From the NCBI GenBank assembly GCA_937899725.1, contig CALCCA010000058.1, positions 1 to 43,409 on the forward strand: a DNA stretch of 43,409 nt. Direction: 5' to 3'. Below the pieces are notes generated by a model, which was not told the DNA's origin, did no database searches, and saw only the letters and a program-made list of their open reading frames with translations. Each line of letters opens with the position of its first letter. Within the stretch, counting starts at the first letter, position 1. The stretch comes from an uncultured Halomicronema sp. (GTDB lineage Bacteria > Cyanobacteriota > Cyanobacteriia > Phormidesmidales > Phormidesmidaceae). The position numbers and the translations under genes were made by a program. Of this stretch, positions 4,617 through 8,143 are shown one piece after another.

Positions 4617-4979
4617 CTAAATCTGGTGCTTCTCTACCCAGTGTTTGAGGGTTTCCAGAAAGTCCAAGGTCGTTTTGCCAAAATCAGTGATTTTGTAGAC
4701 GACGGCAATCGGGCGATCGCTCACCACCTCACGGGTCACTAAACCGGCCTCTTCCAGTTCGCGGAGTCGCTGCGTCACCATCTTTTTGCTCGCCCCTCCC
4801 AGTTGCCGGGCTAAATCATTGAACCGGACTGGGCCATCTTTGAGATGCCAGAGAATCGATCCTTTCCATTTACCCCCCAAAACTCTCATGCCTCGCTCAA
4901 TGGGGCAAGGTTCGAGACAGGGCTCCATAGCGTGTTTGCGGCCTTGGTCGTCAGTGGTGATGCCTAAAAATGTACTCAT
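4617..4979 (-). CDS. HxlR/DUF24 family transcriptional regulator
   Basis: A 120-residue winged-helix regulator of the HxlR (MarR/DUF24) family. The signature CPIERGMRVLGGKWKGSILW is present, followed by VRFNDLARQLGGASKKMVTQ (recognition helix), RLRELEEAGLV and the wing REVVSDRPIAVVYKIT. Two cysteines, in CLEPCPIE just before helix 1, sit where YodB/HypR-type members carry the redox-sensing Cys; that a thiol switch operates here is inference. The gene is divergent from gst-mdaB-ltrA, and two palindromes lie between them, so autoregulation and control of the divergent genes is the simplest reading. Family assignment is firm; the inducer (quinone, hypochlorite, other electrophile) is unknown. 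Confidence 0.93.
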   Translation of the reverse strand: MSTFLGITTDDQGRKHAMEPCLEPCPIERGMRVLGGKWKGSILWHLKDGPVRFNDLARQLGGASKKMVTQRLRELEEAGLVTREVVSDRPIAVVYKITDFGKTTLDFLETLKHWVEKHQI

Positions 4980-4990
4980 GGGATACCTGG

Positions 4991-5037
4991 TTACTAAAAG
5001 TAAACTGGTTGACTCTAGTGACTAGTCTGATTATGTT
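4991..5037 (+). promoter_or_regulatory. Divergent hxlR/gst control region: two palindromes and a sigma-70-like promoter
   Basis: TTACTAAAAGTAA (4991-5003) is a perfect 5+3+5 palindrome 12 bases upstream of the HxlR-type start codon. CTAGTGACTAG (5015-5025) is a perfect 11-bp palindrome. On the plus strand TTGACT (5009-5014) and TATGTT (5032-5037) are separated by exactly 17 bases, a plausible sigma-70-type promoter for gst, with the second palindrome in its spacer. A repressor bound there would block polymerase. TACT...AGTA half-sites resemble operators known for DUF24-family regulators. Promoter use and binding are inferred. Confidence 0.5.
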
Positions 5038-5140
5038 AAATCACGGCAGCAGCCAAGGTCACTCGTCCTGATTGCTGTTGGACTATGGGCGACTGGGCCG
5101 CCCGGCCAAAGTTTGAGTCATCGCCAGTCAGGAAATCCCT

Positions 5141-5839
5141 ATGCCTACCCCCGATATCCATCTCTATACTGCCTCCACGATGAATGGCTGGAAACCGGTC
5201 ATTTTTCTTGAAGAAGCCGAGGTCGAGTATGAACTGACCTCTATCGACTTTGGCAAAAAAGAGCAGAAATCGGACTGGTATATGCGGCTCAATCCCAATG
5301 GTCGCATTCCGACGATTGTCGATCGCGGCAACGACGATTTGGTTGTGTTTGAGTCAGGGGCAATTCTCTGGTATTTGGCTGAGAAGTACCAAAAGTTTTT
5401 GCCCAGCGGCGACAAGGCGCGATCGGAAGCGCTGCAATGGCTGATGTTCCAAATGTCTGGCATTGGTCCCATGATGGGCCAGGCTATGTATTTCCAGCGC
5501 ATTGCGGCTCCGAAAGGTAACGAAGATCCCTACGCCATTGATCGCTATGTGACGGAGTCGCGGCGACTGCTGGAGGTGTTGGATCAGCAATTGGCAGGCA
5601 AAGCCTATTTGCTCGGGAACGACTTCACCATTGTCGATATGGCGACGTATCCCTGGGCGCGTTCTTACCCCTGGGCCAAGGTTTCGATCCAGGATTTGGA
5701 CAACTTAAAAGCCTGGTTTGAGCGCCTTGATGTTCGCCCCGCCACCCAAAAGGCCATCACCATTCCCAAACCCTTTCCGGCATTTTTCGGTAAAGGCGAT
5801 GAAGCCGCCTCCGAAGCTGAGAATGCCTCCCGTTTCTAA
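5141..5839 (+). CDS. Glutathione S-transferase
   Basis: A 232-residue GST of the Ure2p-like/YfcG type. The N-terminal thioredoxin-like domain has HLYTASTMNGWKPVIFLEEA, the cis-Pro stretch NPNGRIPTIVD (51-61) and the glutathione-binding ESGAILWYL (71-79). The C-terminal helical domain includes MFQMSGIGPMMGQAMYF and the N-capping/hydrophobic staple segment FTIVDMATYPW. It should conjugate or reduce electrophiles with glutathione in the cytoplasm. The start ATG has AGGAAA 6 bases upstream. It is the first gene of a likely operon with mdaB (57-bp gap) and ltrA (25-bp gap), facing a HxlR-type regulator, which suggests an electrophile or quinone stress response. Confidence 0.94.
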   Translation: MPTPDIHLYTASTMNGWKPVIFLEEAEVEYELTSIDFGKKEQKSDWYMRLNPNGRIPTIVDRGNDDLVVFESGAILWYLAEKYQKFLPSGDKARSEALQWLMFQMSGIGPMMGQAMYFQRIAAPKGNEDPYAIDRYVTESRRLLEVLDQQLAGKAYLLGNDFTIVDMATYPWARSYPWAKVSIQDLDNLKAWFERLDVRPATQKAITIPKPFPAFFGKGDEAASEAENASRF

Positions 5840-5896
5840 GTGCTGACGCTGCGAATTCTTTTCCCCTGACACACCATCTTTGCCGAGAATTTTGCC

Positions 5897-6487
5897 ATGA
5901 AGAACGTTTTTATCATCAATGCTCACGAAGCCTATCCCTTCTCCGAGGGCAAGCTCAATGCCACGTTAGTAGATAAAGCTAAAACCAATCTGACCCAGAA
6001 AGGCTATGACGTCAGAATCACCACAATGAAGAATGAATATGACGTTGAGCAAGAATTAGCAACTCATCAATGGGCTGATGTGGTGATTCTGCAGAGCCCA
6101 GTGAACTGGATGGAAGTGCCCTGGAGCTTTAAGCGCTATATGGATTTTGTCTACTCTGCCGGTATGGGAGGGCAGCTTTGTGAGGGTGACGGAAGAAGTC
6201 GTCAAGACCCGAGTCAGCAATACGGCACCGGGGGGACATTAACCGACGCAAAATATATGCTTTCGCTCACCTTGAATGCGCCCAAAGCAGCGTTTGACGA
6301 TCCCAATCAGGGGTTCTTTGAGGGGAGGGGGTTAGACGATCTCTTTTGGCCGATGCACTTGAACTTTAAATTCTTTGGGATGCAACCAATGGCGACCTTT
6401 GCCTGTTTCGATGTGATGAAAAATCCAGATATTGCAAACGACTTCATGCGGTTTGAAGCTCATCTGAATCAACATTTCCCAGCCTGA
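5897..6487 (+). CDS. mdaB: NAD(P)H:quinone oxidoreductase, MdaB-like flavodoxin-fold protein
   Basis: A 196-residue protein resembling MdaB (modulator of drug activity B) over its whole length. Visible pieces are [20 protein letters not shown] for the FMN/FAD phosphate loop, [40 protein letters not shown], and the C-terminal [20 protein letters not shown]. MdaB is an FAD-containing two-electron quinone reductase that avoids semiquinone formation and protects against quinone toxicity. Its place between gst and ltrA, divergent from a DUF24-type regulator, matches known arrangements in which such regulators control quinone or azo reductases. No catalytic segment seems missing. Confidence 0.9.
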
Positions 6488-6512
6488 TAGAAAGTCACCC
6501 TGAGGTCATCCC

Positions 6513-7289
6513 ATGCCGGAGCTGAAATATTTTGTGGAAGACCGCCATGCAACCTGGCTAGAACTATTTTTCGATCTGGTGTTCGTCGCTAGCATCAGCG
6601 TGATCACTCATCATCTGACCCATGTCCATGGGGGGCATCTAGCAGGGCAGCAGGTGATGCTATTTATCAGTGAGTTCATTCCTGTGTGGTGGATCTGGGC
6701 AACCCATACCCTCTATGCCAACCGCTTCGACACGGACAGCAAAACCCATCGCGTGACGAGTCTGGTCATCATGTTTTTGATGACCACGTTGTCGGCCTTT
6801 TTAGGGGCAGGGTTGTTTGACGGTTCCACCCGCTTCATTAGTTTCTATATCGCTATTCGTCTGGTGCAGGCGGGGATGTATTTTTCGACCAGCTATCGGC
6901 TACCGGAATCCCAGCCCTATGCCAAGTGGATGGGCATGACCGTGCTGGGAGGAATGGCGATCTCGCTTTTGGCCCTCTTTTTCAGTAGCCCCCTCCGGCA
7001 ACTGATCTTCTTGGGTAGCATTGGCCTGGAAATGATCGCGATCGCTCAGATCAGCACCCAGAGAACAGTCATGCCAGTGCATTGTAGCCATCTGGTAGAG
7101 CGCATTGGCCTGCTGTCAATTATTTTGCTGGGTGAGTCAGTGATTAGTCTGGTGTCGGGTTTAAGCGGGCTGGAGTGGAACCAGTACGATCTGTTTGCCG
7201 CCGTCACCGGATTCTTGATGATTGGCGCGATCTGGTGGATTTACTTCGATAGCTTCAACATCCCGGAGCGAGCCAAACGCATTCAATAG
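6513..7289 (+). CDS. Low temperature requirement protein A (LtrA) family membrane protein, C-terminally truncated
   Basis: The protein starts like LtrA-family proteins (YFVEDRHATWLELFFDLVFVASIS), then has the WWIWATHTLYANRFDTDS segment and ERIGLLSIILLGESVISLVSG, with about seven hydrophobic helices. LtrA proteins are usually about 370-400 residues, but this frame ends at 258 with TAG straight after ERAKRIQ. The lost sequence continues past the stop and needs one more frameshift to read (separate entry). The function of the family is poorly known; the name comes from a Listeria cold-growth phenotype. It is the third gene of the gst-mdaB run, 25 bp after mdaB. The truncated product may be non-functional. 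Confidence 0.8.
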   Translation: MPELKYFVEDRHATWLELFFDLVFVASISVITHHLTHVHGGHLAGQQVMLFISEFIPVWWIWATHTLYANRFDTDSKTHRVTSLVIMFLMTTLSAFLGAGLFDGSTRFISFYIAIRLVQAGMYFSTSYRLPESQPYAKWMGMTVLGGMAISLLALFFSSPLRQLIFLGSIGLEMIAIAQISTQRTVMPVHCSHLVERIGLLSIILLGESVISLVSGLSGLEWNQYDLFAAVTGFLMIGAIWWIYFDSFNIPERAKRIQ

Positions 7290-7444
7290 GGGTTTGTGCT
7301 GCTCTACTCCATCTCCTCTTTTTGCTGGGACTCGGAGTCCTGTCGAGCTTGATTGGTTATGCCATTCTCAATGACTTAGCAATCACGGATTTTCGGATAT
7401 TGGCGATCGAGTTGAGAGCTATAGGTTCGAATCTAGGCTGCTAG
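7290..7444 (+). pseudogene. Severed tail of the ltrA gene
   Basis: After the TAG at 7287-7289 the same frame reads GFVLLYS. A one-base shift then gives HLLFLLGLGVLSSLIGYAIL and NDLAITDFRIL, a hydrophobic helix of the kind expected downstream in LtrA proteins, before stopping at 7442-7444. One nonsense change (for example CAG to TAG) and one single-base deletion explain the break. Nothing recognisable of the rest of the C-terminus follows, so the end is also lost. Confidence 0.6.
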
Positions 7445-7462: not shown

Positions 7463-8143
7463 TTATTTGTTATTACCTAGGCAACGATCCAACCAATCCT
7501 CGTACCAGGCCAGCAAGCCCATACTCTTACCTTCTCTACTGATGACTGGAAACCAGTTCATATCGCAGCACCAGACTAAACCTCGTTGTTCGCCAGCAGT
7601 TACGAGGACATCAAAAACACCACAGCCATGGTGAGTCAGGGGGATAAAACCTGCCCCTGCTGGGTAGTCATCATCCTCATCATCGTCATAGTAGTAATCG
7701 TCATCTGGCATATCAAGGGTTGCCCATCGGTTAGTTCCGCTTGTGCGCGCCTTGATGACTTGTTCGGCCATCGCGGAATTGAAAGGAAACGGTCGTCTAC
7801 GACGGGTAAGCGGTTTGGGGTCAGGATAGACGTAAAAACCATACCCAGGACCGAGGCCACCGCCATGGATATGGGTAAGGAAGAGTTTGAGCTCCTCAGG
7901 AAGCGATACCCCAAAGTTTTGTTCAAGCTTATTGACAGCCTCTGCAGACAGGACAGGTTTTCGTTTATAGCGATGTCCGTAGGGGGCTGTGGCCCCGAAT
8001 ATATCCCAGAAGATCCAACGTCTTCGTTGATATCGTAACAGCGTATTTAACTTGGACTTGATCCTATCGATGGCTGCAAATGCTTCATTGTGAGTCTGCA
8101 TAAATAGATATTCGATGTCAGCTTGGCTGGACGAGACTCGCAC
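7463..8143 (-). CDS. SMI1/KNR4 (SUKH superfamily) protein
   Basis: A 226-residue protein with the SUKH pattern. VNKLEQNFGVSLPEELKLFL THIHGGG is the characteristic beginning of the SMI1/KNR4 domain (split here by a space), and the C-terminal part SREGKSMGLLAWYEDWLDRC is the typical closing helix. Residues about 145-165 are extraordinarily acidic (DMPDDDYYYDDDEDDDYP). SUKH proteins often are immunity proteins for contact-dependent or polymorphic toxins, but no toxin gene is adjacent, so immunity is only a possibility. The start used is the first ATG; an in-frame ATG 14 codons later is equally plausible. The gene is isolated, facing the decayed ltrA and followed upstream by a long gene-free region. 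Confidence 0.85.
   Translation of the reverse strand: MRVSSSQADIEYLFMQTHNEAFAAIDRIKSKLNTLLRYQRRRWIFWDIFGATAPYGHRYKRKPVLSAEAVNKLEQNFGVSLPEELKLFLTHIHGGGLGPGYGFYVYPDPKPLTRRRRPFPFNSAMAEQVIKARTSGTNRWATLDMPDDDYYYDDDEDDDYPAGAGFIPLTHHGCGVFDVLVTAGEQRGLVWCCDMNWFPVISREGKSMGLLAWYEDWLDRCLGNNK

Follow-up and report, generated by a model that had tools for sequence, protein, structure and literature searches.

A candidate operator for a cysteine-pair HxlR/DUF24 regulator divergent from gst and mdaB in a cyanobacterium

The hxlR-gst-mdaB locus

We analysed a stretch of 43,409 nucleotides from an uncultured Halomicronema sp. (assembly GCA_937899725.1, contig CALCCA010000058.1), referred to below as the window. 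In it, a gene for a winged-helix regulator of the HxlR/DUF24 family (hxlR) is transcribed divergently from genes for a glutathione S-transferase (gst) and a quinone reductase of the MdaB family (mdaB). The region between hxlR and gst comprises 161 base pairs (bp; 4980-5140) and contains a conserved 23-bp element that we propose as the operator of the regulator. An original prediction, made from the letters of the window alone, had described this arrangement as a thiol-controlled detoxification operon, and the regulator, gst, mdaB, the divergent region and the gst promoter that it named are all present. The three genes at the core of the locus are:

4617-4979, minus strand: hxlR, HxlR/DUF24 winged-helix regulator of 120 amino acids with Cys21 and Cys25 in a CxxxCPIE motif (CLEPCPIE)
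5141-5839, plus strand: gst, glutathione S-transferase with the Pfam domains GST_N and GST_C, related to YfcG-type disulfide-bond oxidoreductases
5897-6487, plus strand: mdaB, quinone reductase of the MdaB family dependent on reduced nicotinamide adenine dinucleotide phosphate, with a flavodoxin fold (PF02525, Flavodoxin_2, 101 bits)

The assignment of the regulator to the HxlR/DUF24 family is confirmed by Pfam (PF01638, 88.8 bits with a cut-off of 20.8), and the cysteines noticed earlier in CLEPCPIE are Cys21 and Cys25. That this protein faces a glutathione S-transferase and an MdaB-like enzyme is likewise confirmed by Pfam and by sequence matches in the PDB. The gst product is closest to solved bacterial glutathione S-transferases (PDB 6tum, 1.9e-64), with YfcG itself scoring lower (3gx0, 3.8e-46). 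Its best NCBIfam model, PRK13972, reaches 167 bits and stays under the cut-off of 332 for a YfcG-type equivalog; the enzyme thus appears related to YfcG, and orthology is not established. The mdaB product matches PDB 4s24 over residues 1-193 (E 4.9e-53) as well as 3rpe and 2amj, all of them entitled 'Modulator of drug activity B', and this close similarity to solved structures places it in the MdaB family.

A conserved element in the divergent promoter region

The features that we recognize or propose in the divergent region, all given in the direction of gst, are:

4989-5011, plus strand: 23-bp candidate operator GGTTACTAAAAGTAAACTGGTTG, which encloses palindrome 1 and extends into the -35 box
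4989-5005, plus strand: O1, proposed primary half-site pair GGTTAC-N5-GTAAAC (alignment columns 0-16), a putative dimer site with half-site centres 11 bp apart
5007-5023, plus strand: O2, proposed weaker secondary site GGTTGACTCTAGTGACT with a GTNAC core, overlapping palindrome 2
5009-5014, plus strand: -35 box TTGACT of the gst promoter, read directly, overlapping the 23-bp element
5032-5037, plus strand: -10 box TATGTT of the gst promoter, after a spacer of 17 bp

A search of genome contigs for relatives of the regulator found 152, of which the best 80 were kept (60–88% identity; loci are designated L below). One of them, L072, lies at a contig edge and was dropped from the promoter count, leaving 80 usable sequences, the window and 79 loci. 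The pattern GGTTACNAAAAGTAWACTGGTTG, which corresponds to 4989-5011 of the window, is found exactly in 45 of these 80 promoters, with at most one mismatch in 64, at most three in 70 and at most five in 77. In 400 shuffles the best match had six mismatches (0/400 at five or fewer). The hosts include cyanobacteria, alpha- and gammaproteobacteria and others. In L089 the site is cut by the upstream boundary we had chosen, and its last part is still visible. The columns of the element carry 1.3–2.0 bits each, save positions 6 (0.46) and 14 (0.89). The left flank falls to 0.06–0.35 bits (columns -6 to -2), save position -1 (0.86); the right flank is partly conserved, with 0.4–1.2 bits at columns 23, 25, 27 and 29-34 and 0–0.41 bits at columns 36-43 before the -10 box.

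The original prediction had rested on two palindromes, TTACTAAAAGTAA (palindrome 1, 4991-5003, inside the 23-bp element) and CTAGTGACTAG (palindrome 2, 5015-5025, inside the 17-bp spacer of the gst promoter), and had expected both to recur upstream of orthologous genes. By themselves they are not above chance. With arms of at least 5 and a spacer of at most 5, the 161-bp region holds three inverted repeats versus 0.90 in dinucleotide shuffles (P of three or more, 0.086), the third being GGCCGCCCGGCC at 5096, which had gone unmentioned. Palindrome 1 lies in the strongly conserved element and keeps all five arm pairs in 11/77 promoters, or 10/27 in a cyanobacterial subset of rows sorted by hand; most others read GTATAC. 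Palindrome 2 does so in just 3/77 promoters (2/27 in the same subset), and what recurs is its GTNAC core. The first half of the expectation therefore stands in modified form and the second fails, and we rejected palindrome 2 as an independent operator. We take the site to be real because it is conserved across promoters, the palindromes alone being at chance level; the operator foreseen for this promoter region was thus recovered through comparison.

The arrangement GGTTAC-N5-GTAWAC, with its centres 11 bp apart, would be as expected for a dimer that reads successive major grooves. The GTNAC core occupies columns 29-33 (0.43–1.2 bits), and self-similarity is best at a lag of 18 bp (0.467, the next best being 0.379). 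This is suggestive of a weaker second site 18 bp further on, which the core could form together with GGTTGAC. Two variations of the site were also seen. Four betaproteobacterial loci (L112, L113, L116 and L117) have a variant operator in which AAAATACYAC replaces AAAAGTATAC, possibly through co-evolution with the regulator, and six loci on gammaproteobacterial plasmids (L141, L142, L143, L144, L145 and L147) have a second GGTTAC-like copy about 36 bp downstream, near the -10 region.

With the -35 box fixed at alignment positions 20-25, an A at position 2 of the -10 box occurs together with a T at position 6 in 55/77 promoters at a spacer of 17, and the same pairing in 2–13 of 77 at spacers of 12-16 and 18-22. 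TTGACT-N17-TATGTT, proposed earlier with palindrome 2 in its spacer, is therefore a conserved promoter. On its other side the element stops 9 bp ahead of the hxlR start codon, which suggests autoregulation.

Linkage of the element to the regulator and to detoxification genes

Among 388 cyanobacterial genomes (designated G below), the regulator is present in 14 (E at most 1e-25) and the element in 13, all of which are among these 14; the pattern used here had R at one place and was allowed one mismatch. None of the 374 genomes without the regulator contains the element at this threshold. The 13 genomes harbor 14 sites, each without a mismatch and at most 30 bp from an hxlR match; two of these sites are in G019, which also has two regulators. 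The remaining regulator genome, G004 (L042), has an hxlR that is matched only from residue 36 and contains an internal stop, and we found no operator, gst or mdaB near this broken gene. In another genome, G005 (L038/L054), two extra short C-terminal fragments of hxlR were observed beside an intact copy.

In the Halomicronema genome itself, 4989-5011 is the sole site with up to three mismatches, so that no further regulon member emerged at this threshold. The same search in 21 regulator-bearing genomes or records gave one site in 17, none in two (the L084 and L113 records) and three in two. Since a control with the reversed pattern matched 5/21, we make no claim for the extra three-mismatch sites. 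Upstream of 19 more distant cyanobacterial HxlR paralogues the best matches to the element had 7–10 mismatches, none having six or fewer.

A set of 15 plasmid records retrieved by tblastn had been kept outside the derivation of the pattern. All 13 members with a CxxxCxIE motif (56–66% identity) carry the element, 12 with at most two mismatches and L150 with four. Two Novosphingobium plasmid relatives (43–44% identity) have neither the motif nor a site within five mismatches. Of 45 shuffled loci, one reached five mismatches and five reached six. A gene for MdaB at 56–66% identity lies nearby in 13/13 of the CxxxCxIE loci and in 0/2 of the Novosphingobium loci. In five of the plasmids (L143, L144, L145, L147 and L153), mdaB is encoded in line with hxlR and in front of it, with the element placed before mdaB. 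The Vibrio plasmids L143, L144, L145 and L153 contain an additional, weaker site (3–4 mismatches) before a convergent redoxin gene, whose identity was checked for L143. The element therefore tends to follow the target genes.

The divergent gene could be scanned at 76 of 80 loci, L071, L072, L105 and L112 being left out. It was taken as the first divergent open reading frame listed, sometimes with a later start; for L098, L113, L116, L117 and L123 a later-listed overlapping frame was taken instead and checked separately. The products belong to Flavodoxin_2 (35), glutathione S-transferases (18), aldehyde dehydrogenases (9), AhpC/TSA (7), Oxidored_FMN (3), zinc alcohol dehydrogenases (2) and CAT (1), and a single frame without a match (L096) may be spurious. 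Going by what is known of these families, a member of a detoxification-type family is divergent from the regulator at 74/76 loci. Named examples include the NADPH-dependent aldehyde reductase Ahr of L059 and L106 (above cut-off) and an N-ethylmaleimide reductase in L113 (below cut-off); a gene of the old-yellow-enzyme family is divergent from the regulator in L113, L116 and L117. The CAT entry is a chloramphenicol acetyltransferase-family gene at 5129-5800 of L084 (Acanthopleuribacter pedis). The conserved linkage supports, across phyla, both the pairing of regulator and targets and the theme of electrophile or oxidant detoxification that had been read from this one locus. No other observation points as strongly to an electrophile or oxidant signal as the retention of one operator alongside a varying set of such enzymes.

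In a tree of 81 regulators, built from few alignment columns, the Cyanobacteriota need four changes, of which the branches starred in the tree force only one. Horizontal transfers of the regulator are not proved by it. The sequence from L102, a record named Oceanobacillus sp. HTM 045, groups among alphaproteobacterial sequences and is possibly mislabelled or from a mixed assembly. Judging by their names, the hosts and plasmid sources of L045-L124 and L141-L155 are mostly marine, which is an impression only.

The gene following mdaB, ltrA, had been counted as part of the operon. It is present in two pieces:

6513-7289, plus strand: ltrA, broken, front part only (positions 1-234 of 356 of the LtrA profile PF06772)
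7328-7411, plus strand: remnant of ltrA, 28 codons in a different frame, 68% identical to residues 301-328 of the Leptolyngbya LtrA frame of L053 (E 0.004)

Compared with the longer frames of two Leptolyngbya relatives, ltrA has an in-frame stop, and homology continues past it to 7310. Beyond the displaced remnant there is no more C-terminal match to these longer frames, and a role for the gene as a working operon member is not supported. LtrA-like frames were seen near 7/95 loci examined (L053, L054, L110, L120, L121, L150 and, in fragments, L115). We therefore regard ltrA as a weak recurring neighbour that is broken in the window, and rejected it as part of the functional unit. Longer LtrA frames near the same switch occur in two Leptolyngbya relatives, some Rhodobacterales and a Pseudoalteromonas plasmid. 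The neighbours scanned around hxlR were gst, mdaB, ltrA, a GNAT and a SUKH protein, the last (SUKH/SMI1_KNR4, 7463-8143) being encoded downstream of the ltrA remnant.

A predicted electrophile-responsive switch and its relation to known regulators

Cys21 and Cys25 are the only cysteines of the regulator, one more than the usual HxlR/DUF24 cysteine. The CxxxC arrangement is found in 81/81 regulators including that of the window, a sample biased by one of six search seeds that covered this stretch; members without the exact seed (e.g. CEQPCLIE) keep both cysteines, as do the 13/13 held-out plasmid relatives. The more distant cyanobacterial paralogues mostly lack it, CxxxC being seen in 1/19 (L014). 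Not all members have a proline after the second cysteine; some have Ala, Ser or Leu there. Cys25 aligns with Cys14 of HypR and, in a structure model (mean predicted local distance difference test score 80.6, with 59–75 over the first three ten-residue blocks), lies just before helix 1, which spans residues 26-34. Alignment and model thus agree on a conserved cysteine at the N-terminus of helix 1, as in YodB-type regulators. The invariant pair fits a thiol switch and would fit a ChlR-like iron-sulphur site, too.

Our preferred reading, to which we assign a probability of roughly 0.6, is that the regulator acts locally, as an electrophile-responsive repressor that controls a detoxification operon and probably its own gene, and that it represents a distinct CxxxC subfamily of HxlR regulators. 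A dimer of the regulator would bind 4989-5011, covering the edge of the -35 box of gst-mdaB 9 bp before its own start codon; from this position it would most likely repress the operon for detoxification as well as its own gene. Cys25, at the N-terminal end of helix 1, would be modified by electrophiles or oxidants such as quinones, aldehydes or hypohalites, and Cys21 would act as resolving or second residue. The modified dimer would then release the DNA, and the glutathione-dependent GST as well as MdaB, for two-electron quinone reduction, would be made. Comparison shows the protein family, the cysteine pair and the operator, together with how the operator is linked to the regulator, where it lies in the promoter and that its linked genes are of a detoxification type; that the protein represses instead of activating, senses through Cys25, responds to such inducers and controls its own gene is what we infer.

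Several observations weigh against this reading. The partly conserved right flank means that the right edge of the element is not sharp. L096 is without a site, and L084 has a weak reversed match (6 mismatches, on the other strand). The 80 promoters in which the pattern was counted are also those it came from, so that the co-occurrence and the held-out plasmids carry more weight. The 388-genome set overlaps these promoters, and the plasmids are the independent test; their 13 members include two closely related pairs (L141/L142 and L144/L145), and L151 has two sites that are not obviously placed before mdaB. On the protein side, neither of the known partner positions is a cysteine: there is no second, C-terminal one as in YodB (Cys101), and Cys49, the partner cysteine of HypR, aligns with Leu60. 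The known disulfide geometries therefore do not apply. Finally, the best half-site pair is situated immediately 5' of the -35 box, where an activator could bind too, and the close family members HypR (PMC10458429) and B. subtilis HxlR (PMC7835342) are described as activators.

The last two points lead to the main alternative on the output side, in which the modified protein binds beside the -35 box and turns on gst-mdaB like HypR or B. subtilis HxlR. We consider this unlikely, though the best placed of the alternatives. Both promoter boxes are close to consensus and stand 17 bp apart, which favours repression; moreover, the element covers the first bases of the -35 box and the weaker GTNAC core lies in the spacer.

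On the input side, the main alternative is an iron-sulphur or metal sensor, in which Cys21 and Cys25 of both subunits hold a cluster as proposed for ChlR, and its loss under oxidants, NO or electrophiles alters DNA binding. ChlR is a cyanobacterial, HxlR-like regulator of the MarR type that is reported to bear a [4Fe-4S] cluster on the dimer (PMC4500134, PMC13421787), with Cys-X4-6-Cys-Pro as likely ligands. The invariance of the pair and its rarity among distant paralogues would suit such a site, and the best PDB sequence match, 7kd3, has two N-terminal cysteines five residues apart. However, the spacing here is X3, not X4-6, the following proline is variable, and the linked genes are of the detoxification type, not of low-oxygen metabolism; we therefore hold this reading to be somewhat less probable still than activation. 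Equally doubtful is a broader version, in which a cross-phylum CxxxC subfamily would sense oxidants or electrophiles via an iron-sulphur or metal centre that four cysteines form where the two subunits meet, as a portable sensor-operator cassette whose operator is kept and whose cargo (GST, MdaB, aldehyde dehydrogenase, redoxin, old yellow enzyme) is swapped.

It is very improbable that the conserved DNA is merely the inherited promoter of a transferred gene block and no binding site. The patchy distribution (14/388 cyanobacterial genomes), the shared ancestry of the copies and the partial conservation of the right flank would agree with this; however, the left flank is unconserved, the site persists across divergent genes from six enzyme families, and in five plasmid loci it stands before an mdaB transcribed in line with hxlR. 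Least probable of all is a formaldehyde sensor with a Cys-Lys methylene bridge as in B. subtilis HxlR, which shares fold and family and would suit the aldehyde dehydrogenase or aldehyde reductase genes divergent in some lineages, since the lysine of the sensing pair (Cys11 and Lys13 in the part of PMC7835342 consulted) is replaced, two residues after Cys25, by Ile27, invariant in 57 aligned members.

The HxlR family is well known. In searches of open-access literature, the titles and abstract openings listed contained no description of the CxxxC subfamily, its operator or the pairing, and a search there for MdaB together with HxlR gave no match. A 2026 review (PMC13421787) does not use the word DUF24, and ChlR is the only MarR-type regulator in the passages of it examined. 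The predicted operator is exact and testable, belongs to a cysteine-pair HxlR subfamily that cyanobacteria share with proteobacteria from mostly marine sources, and points to targets in the genomes that contain it. If the repressor reading is true, cyanobacterial redox regulation gains a one-component switch that responds to electrophiles, and the usually single site per genome (17/21) with its swappable cargo would make the switch suited as a biosensor part. Given the apparently marine origin of most hosts, halogenated quinones or hypobromite are candidate inducers.

Among known systems, HxlR, HypR, YodB and QsrR all appear in the fold matches, among many MarR-type chains. B. subtilis HxlR shares the fold (Z 13.1 to 7bzg, with many MarR-type chains scoring similarly) and differs in possessing the formaldehyde-switch lysine. 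ChlR resembles the window protein in being cyanobacterial and in its two N-terminal cysteines, as far as the consulted sources describe it. It differs in the spacing of these residues (Cys-X4-6-Cys-Pro versus CxxxCP) and, within the same limits, in its motif TTMCC-N3/4-GGWAA and its role as activator of chlA2-ho2-hemN; by reading, the printed strand of the 161-bp region contains no TTMCC, and there is no chlA2-ho2-hemN among the scanned neighbours. HypR (B. subtilis YybR) is the second-best sequence match of known structure (2.4e-21) with its Cys14 at the place of Cys25, and differs in being an activator and in having Cys49 where the window protein has Leu60. The electrophile-sensing MarR/DUF24 repressors YodB, CatR and QsrR of Firmicutes differ in their operator and in the second cysteine, which is near the C-terminus (Cys101 of YodB, PMC8063818) and not four residues upstream of the first; the window subfamily has GST and MdaB targets and occurs in cyanobacteria and mostly Gram-negatives. 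They are alike in family, in reductase-type targets and in the cysteine at the start of helix 1, described there as Cys6 of YodB. In the same part of that paper YodB prefers TACT-N7-AGTA, with half-sites in consecutive major grooves, and the two half-sites of either operator have their centres 11 bp apart, one helical turn.

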